DNA of 37,625 nucleotides from Actinomycetota bacterium (lineage in GTDB: Bacteria; Actinomycetota; Acidimicrobiia; Acidimicrobiales; Microtrichaceae): positions 1-37,625 of the forward strand of contig CAUJEC010000126.1 in the NCBI GenBank assembly GCA_963169245.1, read 5' to 3'. The stretch's first letter is position 1. Each line of letters starts with the position of its first letter. This document shows, piece after piece, positions 12,515 to 29,523 of the stretch. Below the pieces are notes generated by a model. It was not told the origin of the DNA. It worked only from the letters and a program-made list of their open reading frames with translations, and searched no databases. Made by a program: the position numbers and the translations under genes.

Positions 12515-12525
12515 CGTACTCTCGG

Positions 12526-12623
12526 TCCACTGTTCCCTGTCGGGGGAAGCCGGTCAGATCCCGGCACTGTCCCGCAGCCGTAGGTGCCACTGGCACGAGT
12601 CGGAATACCCAATGGGGAATGGA
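12526..12623 (+). ncRNA. Cobalamin (vitamin B12) riboswitch aptamer
   Basis: The core elements of the cobalamin riboswitch family appear in the right order. GGGGAAGCCGGT begins at 12543. The stem GCCGG (12549-12553) pairs with CCGGC (12561-12565), followed by the conserved block CACTGTCCCGCAGCCGTAG (12565-12583). The hairpin GTGCC/GGCAC (12584-12596) is next, then the B12 box GAGTCGGAATACC (12597-12609). The closing stem is TCCA-N3-TTCCC (12526-12537) with GGGAA-TGGA (12615-12623). The version with CCCGCAGCCGTA is like those of other Actinomycetota. It sits 91 bases upstream of the transcobalamin-like gene and should turn that gene off when cobalamin is plentiful. The assignment comes from sequence pattern; exact ends are approximate. 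Confidence 0.93.
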
Positions 12624-12648
12624 TTCCAAATAACCGTCGAGGCAAGCG

Positions 12649-12714
12649 GTTCGGAATCCGGAGATGCGGACCCATCGGTTTTCTCCCCGGCCCGAACGGC
12701 AAGGGAGAACTGGG
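12649..12714 (+). promoter_or_regulatory. Expression platform: ribosome-binding-site sequestering hairpin
   Basis: TTCTCCC (12681-12687) is perfectly complementary to GGGAGAA (12703-12709), which contains the ribosome binding site AGGGAG just before ATG 12715. A competing pairing, GTTCGG (12649-12654) with CCGAAC (12692-12697), crosses it, so both cannot form simply together. This is the layout of a translational riboswitch switch: one fold hides the ribosome site, the other exposes it. There is no T-run suggesting transcription termination. Confidence 0.6.
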
Positions 12715-13983
12715 ATGAAAATCTCCGAAGCGGGCGTAAAGCCATCAACCGGGTCCAATGGGCCCTCAACTGTGCGAACCATCATCGGGGCCGCTGCGTT
12801 CATTGCAATGGTGCTGTCGTTCGCCCCAGGTGCGAGCGCCAAGCCGGCGGACTCCGCTCAGCGAGCCGCGGCGGGAGCAGCCTGGCTCACCTCGCAGTTG
12901 GAGGACGGAATCCCGATCGAACAGTGGGGTTCGCCTGACTGGGGTACCACGATCGAAGCAGCGTCGGCTCTGGCCGCAGCGGATGCGACCAACCCGAAGA
13001 TCACAGCCGTGTGGGATGCACTCGTCGCCGATCGAGACAACGTGGTGGCGAAAGGTGGTGCCGATGTTCCCGGCACGCTAGCCAAGGTCATCCTTCTCGC
13101 ACACTCGATCGACAAGAACCCTCGCGCCGTTGGGACCGCGCCTGGAGCAGACCTGGTTCAACGACTTGTTGACACAATGCAGGGGAGTGGCCTCTACGGC
13201 TCACAGTCCCCCAACTATGACGGCGTCTACCGCCAGGGACTTGCGCTCGCGGCCCTTGCATCAGCAGGAGTCTCACCAGATGAACGAGCCGTCAGCTGGC
13301 TCGTCGACCAGCAGTGCACCAACGATGCCTTCGATGGCGCATTCGTGCCTTTCCGCTCGGACACCTCTGTCCCTTGTTCGGATGACCCCGAGAGCTGGTT
13401 CGGGGCAGACACGAACGCGACTGCGCTCGCAATCACAGGCCTGAACGCAGCGGCCAAGGGGAATGCTGGTGCTGACGGTTCAGTGGCCAAGGCTCTCTCG
13501 TGGCTTGCATCTGTGCAGGAGGATGCCGACGGTTGGGCAGCCAACTCGTGGAGTCCGGTGGACCCCAACTCGACCGCCGTGGTCATACAGGCGCTAATCG
13601 CCACCGGCCATCTTGATGACGATGACCTGAACGGAGAAGGCGGAGGCCCACTGGCAGCCCTAGGTGGATTCCAGAGCGATAAGCAGGGTGATGGCGAGCA
13701 GAGTGCCGGATGGTTCTTCTTCCCTGGCATGGAAGGCCCCAACGTCATGGCGACTGTTCAGGCCGTACCAGCGCTCGCTTCCAAGCCGCTGATCTTCAAG
13801 GCCGTCTCCTCACCGACGACGCCCACCACGTCGACGCCCACTACATCCGTTCCAACTACGACCGCACCTCCCACCTCGACAACCACCACGGTTGCTGAGG
13901 TCAAGGGCGTCACCTCTGTCGCCGGTAACACCGGAGCAGCCGCGGCGGGCGTCAACGAACGACCGATCAGCTTCACCGGCTAA
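12715..13983 (+). CDS. Secreted transcobalamin/intrinsic-factor alpha-domain-like protein (alpha/alpha barrel)
   Basis: This is a predicted extracytoplasmic cobalamin-binding protein. From ATG 12715, preceded by AGGGAG, it has 422 residues with a clear signal peptide (helix about residues 21-36, cleavage likely after Ala42 in GASA-K). The mature part has repeated helical units of the terpenoid-cyclase/prenyltransferase alpha-alpha barrel type: AAAGAAWLTSQLEDG, YRQGLALAALASAG, AVSWLVDQQ, DTNATALAITGLNAA, ALSWLASVQEDADGW, DPNSTAVVIQALIATG. This fold forms the alpha domain of animal transcobalamin and intrinsic factor. A Thr/Pro-rich linker (about residues 363-385) leads to a tail ending in ISFTG. 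The B12 riboswitch upstream and the DUF4430-like gene 4 bases downstream make cobalamin the likely ligand. A plain prenyltransferase is unlikely because the protein is secreted. Binding itself is inferred. Confidence 0.82.
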   Translation: MKISEAGVKPSTGSNGPSTVRTIIGAAAFIAMVLSFAPGASAKPADSAQRAAAGAAWLTSQLEDGIPIEQWGSPDWGTTIEAASALAAADATNPKITAVWDALVADRDNVVAKGGADVPGTLAKVILLAHSIDKNPRAVGTAPGADLVQRLVDTMQGSGLYGSQSPNYDGVYRQGLALAALASAGVSPDERAVSWLVDQQCTNDAFDGAFVPFRSDTSVPCSDDPESWFGADTNATALAITGLNAAAKGNAGADGSVAKALSWLASVQEDADGWAANSWSPVDPNSTAVVIQALIATGHLDDDDLNGEGGGPLAALGGFQSDKQGDGEQSAGWFFFPGMEGPNVMATVQAVPALASKPLIFKAVSSPTTPTTSTPTTSVPTTTAPPTSTTTTVAEVKGVTSVAGNTGAAAAGVNERPISFTG

Positions 13984-13987
13984 AGGG

Positions 13988-15079
13988 ATGGCAGACTTGG
14001 CTGGCCGTCGCCTGACCCTCGCTGCCTGTGGCATTCTGCTGCTCGCTGCGAGTCTGGTCGGCGGTCTGGCAGGGATCTCCACTGCTGGCGCCATCTCCAG
14101 TGCCGGTTCCACATCCAGAGCTGCGGCCGCTCCTGCGGTTGTCGCAGCCGCATCTGGGGCCACCGCATCTCTCACCGGCGGGGTCACCTGTACAGCCTCC
14201 TCAGGACGGGTGGCTGTTGCTGTCGTGGTGATGTTTGGCGAGAACGACCAGCCGAGTCCGCGATGTGGGGATGTCGCTCCCGGAGCCAACGGTATGGACG
14301 CTCTCCGGTCCACGGGCTTCACACTCCGACTCGACGCCGGTTTCGTGTGTGCCATAAACGCCGTACCTGAAACGGGATGTGCCAATGGTGGTGGTTTCGA
14401 CGGGACCTACTGGAGGTATTTCCGTGCGCTGCCCGGCGGCACATGGGAGTACTCCAGAACGGGTGCGGGTTTCCCGCTCAAGACATCAGGCGGATGTGCC
14501 ATCGAGGGGTGGATCTGGTCCGGAGCTCAGAAGGTGACCCCACCAGTCGTGCCCGTTGGTTCCATTGCCTGTTCCCACACACCTCCACCAACTACTCCAC
14601 CGGTTCCAACCACAAATGTGCCGCCCGTGACCTCTGCGCCATCAACGCCGGCGATCCCCTCTGATGGTGGAGGCTCACCCTCGTCGTCGGGAGTGGGGTC
14701 GGGGGGCAACGGCGGTAGCGGGCCGACCCCCGGCGTTCCGGGTGCAGGACCATCGGTCACAAGTGTTCCCACAGAGGTGGCCTCTGGTGGTGACAACGGT
14801 TCTGTAGAGGGCTCGGTGGATTCCGGTTCGGAGCCGACCGGGACTGTGGATCCCGGTCGGGCCGACGTCGATAGCGTCGATGGCGACCGAGGTGAATCGT
14901 CGAGGAACAACTCGAAGCGCGACGAGGTCGCAAGCGGAACCGTCGCTGGAGCAGCTGTTCCCAATGCGGGTGGAGGGTCGCCCGTCGGTCTCATCGTGGC
15001 CCTGTGTCTTGTCGGGATACTCGGTGCGGGAACCCTGTTCCTTCGACAACATCGGAGAAGTTCCTCCCCAAATCCTTGA
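13988..15079 (+). CDS. Membrane-anchored DUF4430-like (transcobalamin beta-domain-like) protein
   Basis: The start ATG 13988 follows AAAGGG and lies 4 bases after the previous stop, so the two genes are an operon. Of 363 residues, about 1-40 form a signal peptide (LTLAACGILLLAASLVGGLA). Residues about 60-185 resemble DUF4430, the fold of the transcobalamin beta domain: VAVAVVVMFGE, GANGMDALRSTGFTL, FVCAINAVPETGC, YWRYFRALPGGTWEYSRTGA and GGCAIEGWIWSG. Several cysteines suit disulphides outside the cell. A long Pro/Thr then Gly/Ser/Asp-rich spacer follows, and a C-terminal helix (VGLIVALCLVGILGAGTLFL) with a basic tail (RQHRR) anchors it. It probably forms the second half of a B12-binding clamp at the cell surface. 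No transporter genes are adjacent, so delivery into the cell is unexplained. Confidence 0.8.
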   Translation: MADLAGRRLTLAACGILLLAASLVGGLAGISTAGAISSAGSTSRAAAAPAVVAAASGATASLTGGVTCTASSGRVAVAVVVMFGENDQPSPRCGDVAPGANGMDALRSTGFTLRLDAGFVCAINAVPETGCANGGGFDGTYWRYFRALPGGTWEYSRTGAGFPLKTSGGCAIEGWIWSGAQKVTPPVVPVGSIACSHTPPPTTPPVPTTNVPPVTSAPSTPAIPSDGGGSPSSSGVGSGGNGGSGPTPGVPGAGPSVTSVPTEVASGGDNGSVEGSVDSGSEPTGTVDPGRADVDSVDGDRGESSRNNSKRDEVASGTVAGAAVPNAGGGSPVGLIVALCLVGILGAGTLFLRQHRRSSSPNP

Positions 15080-24846: not shown

Positions 24847-25299
24847 ATGAGGTGCCCTGCATGCGGTGGACTTGAGGACAAGGTCATCGACTCGCGGTCG
24901 GCCGAGGAAGGTTCTGTCATCAGGCGTCGCCGTCAGTGCGACAGTTGTTCGACACGCTTCACGACGCTCGAACGAATCGAAGCGTATGGATTCCATGTGA
25001 TCAAGCGTGATGCTCGCCGCGTTCCATACGACCGACTGAAGGTCGAGTCCGGAGTGTTGGCGGCATGTAAGGGTCGTCCAGTACAGGCCGCTGCTGTCGC
25101 TGCGTTGGCCGATCGACTCGAGGAGCACCTCAGCTCGCTGAAGCGGGACGCGACCGCGGACGAGGTCGGCCAATTCGTCCTTTCGGGGTTGCGGGAGCTT
25201 GATCAGGTCGCCGCAGTCCGTTTCGCAAGCGTCTATAAGTCGTTCGAGGACCCACAGGATTTCGAGAGGGAGGTGAAGTTGCTTGAGAGCGAAGCGTGA
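24847..25299 (+). CDS. nrdR: Transcriptional repressor NrdR
   Basis: NrdR is a zinc-finger/ATP-cone repressor that senses dATP/ATP and controls ribonucleotide reductase genes. It has 150 residues. The zinc ribbon uses Cys3, Cys6, Cys31 and Cys34 (MRCPACGG ... CDSCSTRF). The ATP-cone follows (VIKRDARRVPYDRLKVESGV, then LRELDQVAAVRFASVYKSF), which is diagnostic. It starts 16 bases after the LysM stop and lies 1.4 kb from nrdJ, its probable target. The order lexA-LysM-nrdR is widespread in Actinomycetota. Confidence 0.97.
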   Translation: MRCPACGGLEDKVIDSRSAEEGSVIRRRRQCDSCSTRFTTLERIEAYGFHVIKRDARRVPYDRLKVESGVLAACKGRPVQAAAVAALADRLEEHLSSLKRDATADEVGQFVLSGLRELDQVAAVRFASVYKSFEDPQDFEREVKLLESEA

Positions 25300-26691: not shown

Positions 26692-29523
26692 GTGACAATC
26701 ACATCCTCCCCGAACGACATCACCAGCGAGATCGACATTCGGTCGTCGACACCGCATTCTGAAGGGGTGGCACCTCTTGAGCGGTTCTTCACTCGGCCGG
26801 GTGAGTCGGCCTATGACGCGTTGGAATGGGAACGTCGGGACTCGCGTCTGACCGACTATCGCACCGGCGAGGTGGCCTTCGAACAGATCGGAGTCGAGTT
26901 CCCAACGACCTGGTCACTCACAGCGTCGAATATCGTCGCCCAGAAGTACTTCCGGGGACACTTCGGATCACCTGACCGGGAATGGTCGCTTCGCCAGATC
27001 ATCGACAGGGTGGCGATCACCATCCGGAACTGGGGAGAGGCTGGGGGATACTTCCAAGGTCCAGGAGAGGCCGACACCTTCGAGGAGGAACTGCGTTACC
27101 TGCTCGTGAACCAGATGCTGTCGTTCAACTCGCCGGTCTGGTTCAACATCGGTGTCCCAGGTCGCTCTCAGCAGGCCTCGGCGTGTTTCATTCTCGATGT
27201 CGAGGACGAGTTGCGTTCCATCCTCAACTGGTACACAGAGGAAGGTCTCATCTTCAAGGGGGGCTCCGGATCTGGGGCGAACATATCCAAGATCCGCTCA
27301 TCCTTCGAGTCGCTCAAGGGTGGCGGCACCGCATCGGGCCCGGTCAGCTTCATGAGGGGAGCGGACTCATCAGCGGGAACCATAAAGAGCGGTGGAACAA
27401 CCCGGCGTGCCGCGAAGATGGTGATTCTCGATGTCGACCATCCGGACGTCGAGGAGTTCATCTGGTGCAAGGCGCGTGAGGAACAGAAGGCCAGAGTCCT
27501 CAAGGAAGCCGGCTTCGATATGGACCTCGATGGCGCCGACTCGATCTCTCTGCAATACCAGAATGCAAACAACTCGGTACGACTCAGCGACGAGTTCATG
27601 CAGGCAGCGATCGATGGCGGGACATGGGACCTGACCGCCCGAACCGACGGCAGCGTCATCAACACCGTCTCGGCTCGCGAACTTCTCCACCAGATAGCTG
27701 AGGCAGCGTGGGAGTGTGCCGATCCGGGAGTCCATTTCTCCGGGACCATCAACCGCTGGAACACAACCCCCAATGCTGGGGAGATCGTGGCCAGTAACCC
27801 ATGTTCTGAGCACCTTCGTCTGGCGAACAGTGCCTGCAATCTCGCGTCGTTGAATCTCTTGAAGTTCCTCGACGACGACGCACAATTCGATGTGGCCGCG
27901 TTTGTTCATTCGGTCAAGGTGGTTACGACCGCACAGGACATCCTCGTCGGTTTCTCCGACTACCCAACCGACCCGATCGCCAAGCAGACGGCCCGGGCGC
28001 GTGACATCGGAATCGGCTACACCAACCTCGGCGCCTCACTCATGGCTCTGGGCTATCCATACGACTCTTCCCAGGCCAGATCGTGGGCAGCGGCGGTGAC
28101 CGCACTGCTGACTGGTGCATCAGCGATCCGGTCGACCGAACTTGCTTCCCGACTGGGCCCAGCGCCCCTCTACGAGGGTGACTCCGACGCTTGGCAGAAC
28201 GTCTATGCCATGCACCTCGACGCCGCCCGGTCCATTCCCCAAGTAGCTGTGCAACCGGATATGAACGATCTTGCGGTCGAGGCCTGGCGGATCGCCAATG
28301 AGCAGATAGCGCTCTTCGGTGCACGAAACGCGGAGTTGAGCGTGGCCGCCCCAACGGGAACGATCTCGTTCATGATGGACGCCGATACCACCGGCATCGA
28401 ACCCGACCTCGGTCTGGTGAAGACGAAGAAGCTCGTCGGTGGTGGAACCCTCCAGATTGTCAACCAGACGGTGCCCAAAGCCCTGAGCAGACTGGGATAC
28501 ACCGCAGATCAGTCACAGGAGATCTCCGAGTACATCACAGAGAACCATTCGATCCTCGGTGCCCCGCACATCAAGCCAGAACACATCTCGGTCTTCGCGT
28601 GTGCCATGGGTGACAACACGATCTCCTACGGCGGTCACCTACGCATGATGAGCGCGATCCAGCCGTTCTTCTCCGGAGCGATGTCAAAGACCGTCAATGT
28701 TCCCGAGGACACAACTGTCGAGGAGATCGAACAACTCCTGATCGAGTCGTGGCAGTCGGGGCTCAAGTGCGTTGCCCTCTACCGTGACAACTGCAAGGTC
28801 GCCCAACCGCTCAGCACCGGCAAGAAGACCGAGTCGAGCCCAACCGGGACAACAGATGAGGATGTCTCCGAACTCGTCGCACGTGAGGTTCAGGCGGCTC
28901 TGGAAGCCGTTGAGAGCCGCCCTGTCAGAGAGAAGCTCCCACGCTCGCGCAGTTCGAGGACCTTCGAGTTCCGTGTGGCTGACTGCAAGGGTTTTGTGAC
29001 AGTCGGCGAGTACTCCGACGGGCGTCCGGGGGAGATCTACATCCGGATCTCCAAGCAGGGATCGACACTCGCCGGAATCATGGACGCCTTTGCCATCTCG
29101 GTCAGTCATGGTCTCCAGTACGGTGTTCCACTGAGTGCGTTCGTCCATGCGTTCGTTGGGATGAGATTCGAACCGGCTGGAATCACAGACGACCCAGAGG
29201 TCCGAATCGCCAACTCTCTCATCGACTATCTGTTCCGTCGTCTGGCTGTCGACTACCTAAGCTTTGAGGAACGCTCCGCCATCGGTGTCCTTGCCAACTC
29301 CGAACGTTCACAGCCGACGCTTCCCGGTGTGGAGGAACATTCGGTGGGTGCCCAGACATCCATGGATCTCACGCCGCCGCCGGTTCCGGTCACCTTCAAC
29401 GGTGAGGCGCCACTGACCAAGGCCGTAGAGGCCCCGCTTTGCATGCAGTGCGGGGTCAGGATGAACAGGGCAGGGTCCTGCTACGTCTGTGGAGAGTGTG
29501 GGACAACCAGCGGCTGTTCCTGA
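26692..29523 (+). CDS. nrdJ: Class II (adenosylcobalamin-dependent) ribonucleotide reductase
   Basis: NrdJ reduces ribonucleotides to deoxyribonucleotides using adenosylcobalamin as radical source, without a separate radical subunit. Its 943 residues and motifs fit the long actinobacterial form. Three catalytic cysteines are visible: Cys165 in ASACFIL, the thiyl-radical Cys371 in SNPCSEH and Cys382 in SACNLASLN. Other blocks are SFNSPVWFNIG, GSGSGANISKIRSS, APTGTISFMMDADTTGIEPD and a C-terminal cysteine-rich ribbon (CMQCGVRMN ... CYVCGECG) that likely relays electrons. The start is GTG 26692 with GAGG 9 bases before. nrdR lies nearby, and the long leader probably regulates it. The enzyme makes the cell dependent on B12 unless another reductase exists. 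Confidence 0.97.
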   Translation: MTITSSPNDITSEIDIRSSTPHSEGVAPLERFFTRPGESAYDALEWERRDSRLTDYRTGEVAFEQIGVEFPTTWSLTASNIVAQKYFRGHFGSPDREWSLRQIIDRVAITIRNWGEAGGYFQGPGEADTFEEELRYLLVNQMLSFNSPVWFNIGVPGRSQQASACFILDVEDELRSILNWYTEEGLIFKGGSGSGANISKIRSSFESLKGGGTASGPVSFMRGADSSAGTIKSGGTTRRAAKMVILDVDHPDVEEFIWCKAREEQKARVLKEAGFDMDLDGADSISLQYQNANNSVRLSDEFMQAAIDGGTWDLTARTDGSVINTVSARELLHQIAEAAWECADPGVHFSGTINRWNTTPNAGEIVASNPCSEHLRLANSACNLASLNLLKFLDDDAQFDVAAFVHSVKVVTTAQDILVGFSDYPTDPIAKQTARARDIGIGYTNLGASLMALGYPYDSSQARSWAAAVTALLTGASAIRSTELASRLGPAPLYEGDSDAWQNVYAMHLDAARSIPQVAVQPDMNDLAVEAWRIANEQIALFGARNAELSVAAPTGTISFMMDADTTGIEPDLGLVKTKKLVGGGTLQIVNQTVPKALSRLGYTADQSQEISEYITENHSILGAPHIKPEHISVFACAMGDNTISYGGHLRMMSAIQPFFSGAMSKTVNVPEDTTVEEIEQLLIESWQSGLKCVALYRDNCKVAQPLSTGKKTESSPTGTTDEDVSELVAREVQAALEAVESRPVREKLPRSRSSRTFEFRVADCKGFVTVGEYSDGRPGEIYIRISKQGSTLAGIMDAFAISVSHGLQYGVPLSAFVHAFVGMRFEPAGITDDPEVRIANSLIDYLFRRLAVDYLSFEERSAIGVLANSERSQPTLPGVEEHSVGAQTSMDLTPPPVPVTFNGEAPLTKAVEAPLCMQCGVRMNRAGSCYVCGECGTTSGCS

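Follow-up and report, generated by a model that had tools for sequence, protein, structure and literature searches.

A cobalamin riboswitch and a predicted two-chain, transcobalamin-like capture pair in an actinobacterial draft genome

Gene order and features at the aspS-recA locus

The DNA analyzed in this study, hereafter called the window, is a contig of 37,625 nucleotides (CAUJEC010000126.1; C126) from a Microtrichaceae bacterium of the phylum Actinomycetota (assembly GCA_963169245.1). The subject of the analysis is a cobalamin riboswitch in this window and the two genes that follow it, whose putatively secreted products are designated P1 and P2 and are proposed here to act together in the capture of cobalamin (B12). 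The gene order around the locus is hisS - aspS - riboswitch - P1 - P2 - recA. The genome is a 2.7 Mb draft in 239 contigs, 87% complete and 3.8% contaminated. The closest named relative found was the Microthrixaceae metagenome-assembled genome HKST-UBA20, with 86% identity for aspS and 94% for recA, which places the host most likely in this family or close to it (Acidimicrobiia). The features of the locus are listed in Table 1.

Table 1. Features of the riboswitch-P1-P2 locus (positions in the window)
Feature	Position	Strand	Basis
Cobalamin riboswitch aptamer	12520..12660	+	Rfam core RF00174 at 12543-12610; 3' hairpin at 12621-12659; outer limits read from alignment
Hairpin UUCUCCC/GGGAGAA	12681..12709	+	Folding; probable translation-control expression platform
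P1, predicted secreted alpha/alpha toroid, SCO2321 family relative	12715..13983	+	Translation, NCBIfam, AlphaFold2, PDB comparison
P2, predicted secreted, C-terminally membrane-anchored beta-grasp protein, SCO2322 family relative	13988..15079	+	Translation, NCBIfam, AlphaFold2, PDB comparison

Cobalamin riboswitch and probable expression platform

Analysis of the whole window with cmscan revealed a single Rfam family above threshold, the cobalamin riboswitch RF00174, located directly behind aspS with a score of 37.5 bits against a gathering cut-off of 31.5 (E 3.7e-6). A cobalamin riboswitch directly before the gene pair had been proposed in a sequence-only reading of this stretch, and the Infernal search agrees with it. 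At the orthologous place in HKST-UBA20 (locus L038) the riboswitch covers the full RF00174 model at 49.3 bits. Alignment of the two loci showed that the DNA is kept from about 12515 to 12660, well past the Rfam core, and the conserved hairpin outside the core match reads GGATTCC..AACCG/CGGTT..GGAATCC.

The second hairpin of Table 1 has a local folding energy of -16.5 kcal/mol, and 8 of 200 shuffled sequences folded equally well. The Shine-Dalgarno sequence of P1, AAGGGAG (12701-12707), sits within its 3' arm, and the L038 sequence permits an equivalent CTCCC/GGGAG pair. From the position of the Shine-Dalgarno sequence inside this hairpin we infer switching at the level of translation, and the riboswitch therefore likely controls the translation of P1.

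Sequence features and family membership of P1 and P2

P1 is a protein of 422 amino acids starting at ATG 12715, with a hydrophobic, signal-like N-terminus, a toroid region (about 12844-13788) and a Thr/Pro-rich tail ending in ERPISFTG. P2 consists of a signal-like N-terminus, a beta domain (about 14183-14530), a long spacer, a transmembrane (TM) helix (about 14985-15047) and a basic tail; its translation may start at TTG 13997 instead of ATG 13988, since the Shine-Dalgarno spacing is better there. The sequence-only reading was accurate on the layout of the pair: the genes are four bases apart (the P1 stop codon, then AGGG, then ATG 13988), P1 is without an obvious anchor, with no TM helix in its translation, and the translation of P2 carries a C-terminal membrane helix on a long spacer.

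Comparison with NCBIfam matched P1 to NF053823 (SCO2321_fam) at 170.7 bits (E 4.7e-50), below the equivalog cut-off of 300, and by this score P1 is a SCO2321 homologue outside the equivalog. P2 matched NF040672 (SCO2322_fam) at 26.1 bits (E 8.9e-6), below the subfamily cut-off of 85. The family profiles come from alignments of related loci, with 22 sequences for P1 and 17 for P2. The Pfam scan found no model at cut-off for P1 or P2. Cobalamin_bind (PF01122) had no match in P1 at the Pfam cut-off, and a single member among the 22 of the P1 family reached E 0.014, below the cut-off; the Pfam model of DUF4430 (PF14478) found no match in P2, in the 17 P2 family members or elsewhere in the genome.

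Predicted structures of P1 and P2

The AlphaFold2 model of the P2 core (predicted local distance difference test, pLDDT, 81.5; predicted template modelling score, pTM, 0.74) was compared with the PDB, and the first 14 entries were all beta domains of transcobalamin, haptocorrin or intrinsic factor, with Z scores of 9.4-10.5 and root-mean-square deviations (rmsd) mostly of 2.0-2.6 over 93-97 residues. The best matches were haptocorrin 4kki (Z 10.5, rmsd 2.0 over 93 residues), transcobalamin 7qbe (10.2) and intrinsic factor 3kq4 (10.0). After these carriers came the Ruminococcus gnavus protein 3u7z (Z 9.4), and the next fold reached only Z 6.4. A beta-hairpin after the helix defines the transcobalamin clade of soluble-ligand-binding beta-grasp (SLBB) domains (PMC1796856), and the P2 model contains such a hairpin (helix 74-80, strands 85-88 and 91-95). 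A search of the P2 profile against PDB sequences returned short matches to photosystem PsaF with E above 0.01, which were judged to be chance.

The P1 model (pLDDT 79.6, pTM 0.75) is an alpha/alpha toroid. It matches the whole alpha domain of transcobalamin and intrinsic factor with Z scores of 21.5-22 over 246-261 residues, model residues 44-365 aligning onto residues 6-290 of the carrier alpha-domain chain. The sequence-only reading had taken the two proteins to correspond, in order, to the alpha and beta domains of transcobalamin. Modelled separately, they bear this out at the level of predicted fold, with the carriers as the top matches of P2 and the whole alpha domain covered by P1, but P1 fits terpene cyclases better, and neither protein reaches the Pfam cut-off for DUF4430 or PF01122.

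ECF operon encoded elsewhere in the genome

Analysis of the remaining contigs revealed a second cobalamin riboswitch (C24:868-1020), directly before a gene for EcfT, the T component of an energy-coupling factor (ECF) transporter, which runs off the contig and matches PF02361 (CbiQ) at 45.3 bits. The end of contig C165 and the start of C24 share 141 identical bases, and C165 carries the remaining part of EcfT, then EcfA and then the S-component. The rebuilt operon has the order riboswitch-T-A-S, with EcfA containing two ABC_tran stretches and the S-component matching PF12822 at 34.4 bits; it hence combines EcfT, a paired ATPase and a PF12822-type S-component, the set of an ECF vitamin importer. 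Its T, A and S proteins are 74-79% identical to those of an ECF operon in HKST-UBA20 (L054), and since the identities to HKST-UBA20 are similar, contamination as the source of C24 and C165 is argued against.

The ECF operon is without a capture pair of its own. If the importer uses a pair, this must be the window pair, acting in trans, because the single P1 and the single P2 of this 87% complete genome both lie in the window. HKST-UBA20 holds both arrangements: its pair between aspS and recA (L038) is unlinked, and a further pair (L054) is linked to its ECF operon and precedes it. The sequence-only reading had reported no ECF or BtuCD transporter adjoining the pair. The local absence of ECF genes stands, yet a riboswitch-led T-A-S operon is present on other contigs; the idea that the genome has no transporter is ruled out by this operon, and the pair is accordingly not taken to be a stand-alone scavenger.

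Two further transport genes were observed. A gene of the BioY family (biotin S-component, PF02632; C24:1160-1792, plus strand; L002) is divergent from and adjoins the cobalamin riboswitch-EcfT operon. An ATP-binding cassette (ABC) permease of FecCD type is located at C192:2091-3044 (L063), and a scan of 20 kb of its contig gave no cobalamin riboswitch above threshold.

Dependence of the cell on B12

Only three tetrapyrrole methylases (PF00590) were found in the whole genome. De novo synthesis of cobamides needs more than three such enzymes, and because of this low number the genome is judged to lack the B12 synthesis set. The window itself encodes NrdJ, the adenosylcobalamin-dependent class II ribonucleotide reductase (26692-29523; NCBIfam, 1283 bits), with NrdR nearby (24847-25299), and three further proteins with B12-binding domains are encoded in the genome.

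Conservation of the pair across Actinomycetota

Among related loci of the class for which upstream DNA was available, 21 of 28 distinct loci have a cobalamin-clan riboswitch directly upstream, a count compiled by hand from the riboswitch scan outputs. In many related loci (L048, L050, L051, L053, L056-L058, the Streptomyces-type L104-L106 and, from other actinomycetes, L110 and L111), P1 and P2 are followed in one operon by EcfT of the CbiQ family, EcfA with two ATPase halves and a PF12822 S-component. No riboswitch at threshold was found for the Streptomyces-type L104-L106. In further families (L107-L109), S and P1 stand at the operon end and a DUF4430 gene upstream, with strong riboswitches of 72-108 bits. 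Locus L022 (genome G111, contig C34) contains two pairs before EcfT: the P1 and P2 domains fused in one open reading frame without an obvious anchor, then an LPATG-bearing P1 with a TM-anchored P2. The SCO2321_fam model found homologues in 114 of the 396 Actinomycetota genomes sampled, although most matches are weak and may include other toroids.

The homologues of P2 mostly end in a TM helix and a basic tail. The surface attachment of P1 varied among the loci compared (L021, L022, L054, L077, L078, L026, L086 and L087), and the types found in relatives comprise LPXTG-like signals (LPRTG, LPATG, LPETG), TM helices in the Streptomyces type, SLH-like repeats and the FTG tail.

The FTG tail was also observed outside the pair. 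The tail of P1 (13960-13983) reads ...NERPISFTG; a similar end, ...DERGITFTG, is found in a second protein of the genome, which is large and looks secreted (C90:6504-6527, minus strand; L121/L130). P1 of HKST-UBA20 ends in DRSISFTG, and other P1 relatives end in PTFTG, PRFTG, PAFTG or PRYTG behind Thr/Pro-rich spacers. Two occurrences of the codon pattern R-x-I-[ST]-[FY]-T-G-stop were counted in the genome, against 0 in the control, and among the 248 genomes of the order only two more contain it. The FTG tail is possibly an undescribed C-terminal sorting tag.

Proposed function and alternative explanations

Overall, our analysis suggests that the pair is probably a cobalamin-repressed extracellular cobamide clamp that feeds an unlinked ECF importer. 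Direct support is given by the riboswitch, the gene order, the predicted folds, the trans-encoded ECF operon and the conserved linkage in relatives. Each protein would supply one half of a transcobalamin-like clamp, as a chain of its own. P2, tethered by its C-terminal helix to the outside of the membrane, would probably capture the cobamide first, and P1 would close over the other face, the ligand joining both chains. When separated, the alpha and beta domains of the animal carriers still bind cobalamin, the beta domain before the alpha domain, and they come together only if cobalamin is present (PMC11107200), which makes a two-chain clamp mechanistically plausible. The loaded clamp would then pass the cobamide to the ECF-type importer with its duplicated EcfA ATPase, a type of B12 import proven for ECF-CbrT (PMC5997447). 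At high intracellular cobalamin, the two riboswitches would shut their units, at the pair probably by hiding the P1 Shine-Dalgarno sequence in the second hairpin of Table 1. The cell, with B12 users such as NrdJ and no de novo pathway set, would depend on uptake. From the directly supported parts we infer binding and the identity of the ligand, the order of binding, the handover and the mode of switching. The surface B12 clamp repressed by B12 of the sequence-only reading is consistent with the riboswitch and the predicted folds; it is, however, not stand-alone, and its kind had already been predicted in 2007.

A number of observations weigh against this interpretation. Comparison of the P1 and P2 profiles by hhalign with human transcobalamin (= 2bb5) and intrinsic factor was not significant, the global run giving a corner alignment only, and because of this result the sequence link to the animal carriers is left unproven; the tie to transcobalamin is one of fold, pairing and context, not of sequence. 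Short likenesses to the animal carriers seen by eye (DTxxxxA, NST..QAL, Q..P.L) were not used as evidence. On the transport side, the second riboswitch scored 27.5 bits, under the gathering score, the sequence of the S-component did not match that of CbrT, a B12 S-component of solved structure, and the FecCD-type permease could be another B12 route, or a siderophore importer. In a genome that is only 87% complete, a missing B12 pathway is not proof of its absence. Some relatives have P1 without a nearby P2, and in these P1 may act alone.

The structure of P1 is a further point on this side. Its model is closer to drimenyl diphosphate synthase and squalene-hopene cyclase (Z 26) than to the carriers, and its profile matched squalene-hopene cyclase among PDB sequences at E 2e-24 and no transcobalamin. 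These best fits would suit a secreted enzyme, either class II terpene cyclase-like or a glycosidase-like toroid, with P2 as an incidental neighbour. The toroid fold is common to many enzymes, and a predicted toroid alone is not diagnostic of transcobalamin. However, the profile alignment places the catalytic PDVDDTA (DxDD) of squalene-hopene cyclase against PDTNSTA (DTNS) of the P1 family, so that the catalytic motif is absent, and P1, with DTNS in place of DxDD, is unlikely to catalyze a class II cyclase reaction. P1 also appears to be secreted, and P1 and P2 adjoin across the phylum, are fused in L022 and stand behind cobalamin riboswitches; taken with the altered motif, this makes an enzymatic role for P1 highly improbable. 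A role of the pair and the ECF operon in the import of cobalt ions (CbiMNQO-like), with the riboswitch as end-product control, is favored by the assignment of the T component to Pfam CbiQ; cobalamin riboswitches also frequently control cobalt importers. It is nevertheless very improbable: the S-component belongs to the vitamin-type PF12822 and has no CbiM match, the genome with its three PF00590 matches has no B12 synthesis set to use the cobalt, and a transcobalamin-type beta domain would not be expected for a bare metal ion.

The other alternatives keep a corrinoid as the ligand. A surface role in storing or shielding the ligand, as a B12 buffer or public good instead of ECF feeding, would fit the physical separation of pair and ECF operon within this family and the absence of a membrane anchor in P1, but the pair is linked to ECF genes in many relatives and cobalamin riboswitches control both units, and we consider such a role quite improbable. 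We also consider it unlikely that P1, which has no anchor and shares its ERPISFTG-type tail with another protein of the genome, leaves the cell or is held there only loosely and serves as a freely diffusing B12 catcher, a protein counterpart of siderophores, which docks back onto tethered P2 for import so that the chains meet only via the vitamin. Unlikely, too, is the same architecture with another corrinoid cargo, where the salvaged ligand would be cobinamide or some other incomplete or alternative cobamide. From the riboswitch only cobamide status can be read, ECF-CbrT moves cobalamin as well as cobinamide, its precursor (PMC5997447), and haptocorrin, one of the top structural matches of P2, binds various cobalamin analogues (PMC3360681); nothing at this locus, on the other hand, separates the cargoes. 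A clamp for cobamides that feeds the ECF importer remains the preferred interpretation.

Significance

Burroughs et al. 2007 predicted that bacterial alpha/alpha toroid and transcobalamin-type beta-grasp proteins encoded with CbiO/CbiQ are B12 scavengers, and that transcobalamin entered animals from bacteria of this kind (PMC1796856). The word riboswitch is absent from that paper. No experimental test of the scavenger and transcobalamin-origin predictions was found in the searchable literature, and a literature search returned nothing joining DUF4430 with transcobalamin and bacteria and SCO2321 only in one unrelated paper. The kind of system is hence already known, as predicted in 2007 (PMC1796856) and named in NCBIfam as SCO2321/SCO2322. 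New in this study are a divergent actinobacterial branch missed by Pfam, the control by a cobalamin riboswitch, the two-chain form and the uncoupling from the ECF operon in Microthrixaceae.

Extracellular B12 capture by Gram-positive B12 auxotrophs has little experimental ground so far. The actinobacterial P1-P2-EcfT-EcfA-S operons, including those of cultivable Streptomyces-type genomes, make this capture and the 2007 prediction directly testable. A naturally split clamp would also be a ready two-component, ligand-joined system for the study of clamping and for B12 sensors.

Comparison with known systems

The bacterial SLBB proteins of 2007 resemble the pair as predicted surface B12 scavengers that combine toroid and beta-grasp, occur with CbiQ/CbiO-like genes and belong to hosts usually without B12 synthesis (PMC1796856). 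Those hosts are low-GC Gram-positives, planctomycetes and some archaea (PMC1796856), whereas the pair described here is from an actinobacterial branch that PF14478 does not detect, consists of two genes, lies apart from the ECF genes and has its own riboswitch. The Streptomyces-type operon of the SCO2321/SCO2322 families shares the two-gene order and the T-A-S partners (L104-L106), with significant sub-cut-off hidden Markov model matches. There are two differences: Streptomyces-type P1 carries a TM helix at its C-terminus, which is missing from P1 of the window, and the Streptomyces-type pair shares an operon with the ECF genes, which in the present genome lie on other contigs.

ECF-CbrT of Lactobacillus delbrueckii is alike in its EcfT, ATPases and S-component and in a B12-dependent NrdJ in the same organism (PMC5997447). 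The portion of the source consulted mentions no transcobalamin-like partner, and no match in sequence was found between the S-component here and CbrT.

Animal transcobalamin, intrinsic factor and haptocorrin have the same order of a toroid and then a beta-grasp domain with the post-helix hairpin, are likewise secreted, and match the predicted folds in both domains. Unlike these carriers, the pair is made as two chains, with P2 anchored in the membrane and no significant sequence or profile match. It is bacterial, riboswitch-controlled and partnered with an ABC importer, whereas the animal carriers use a receptor.

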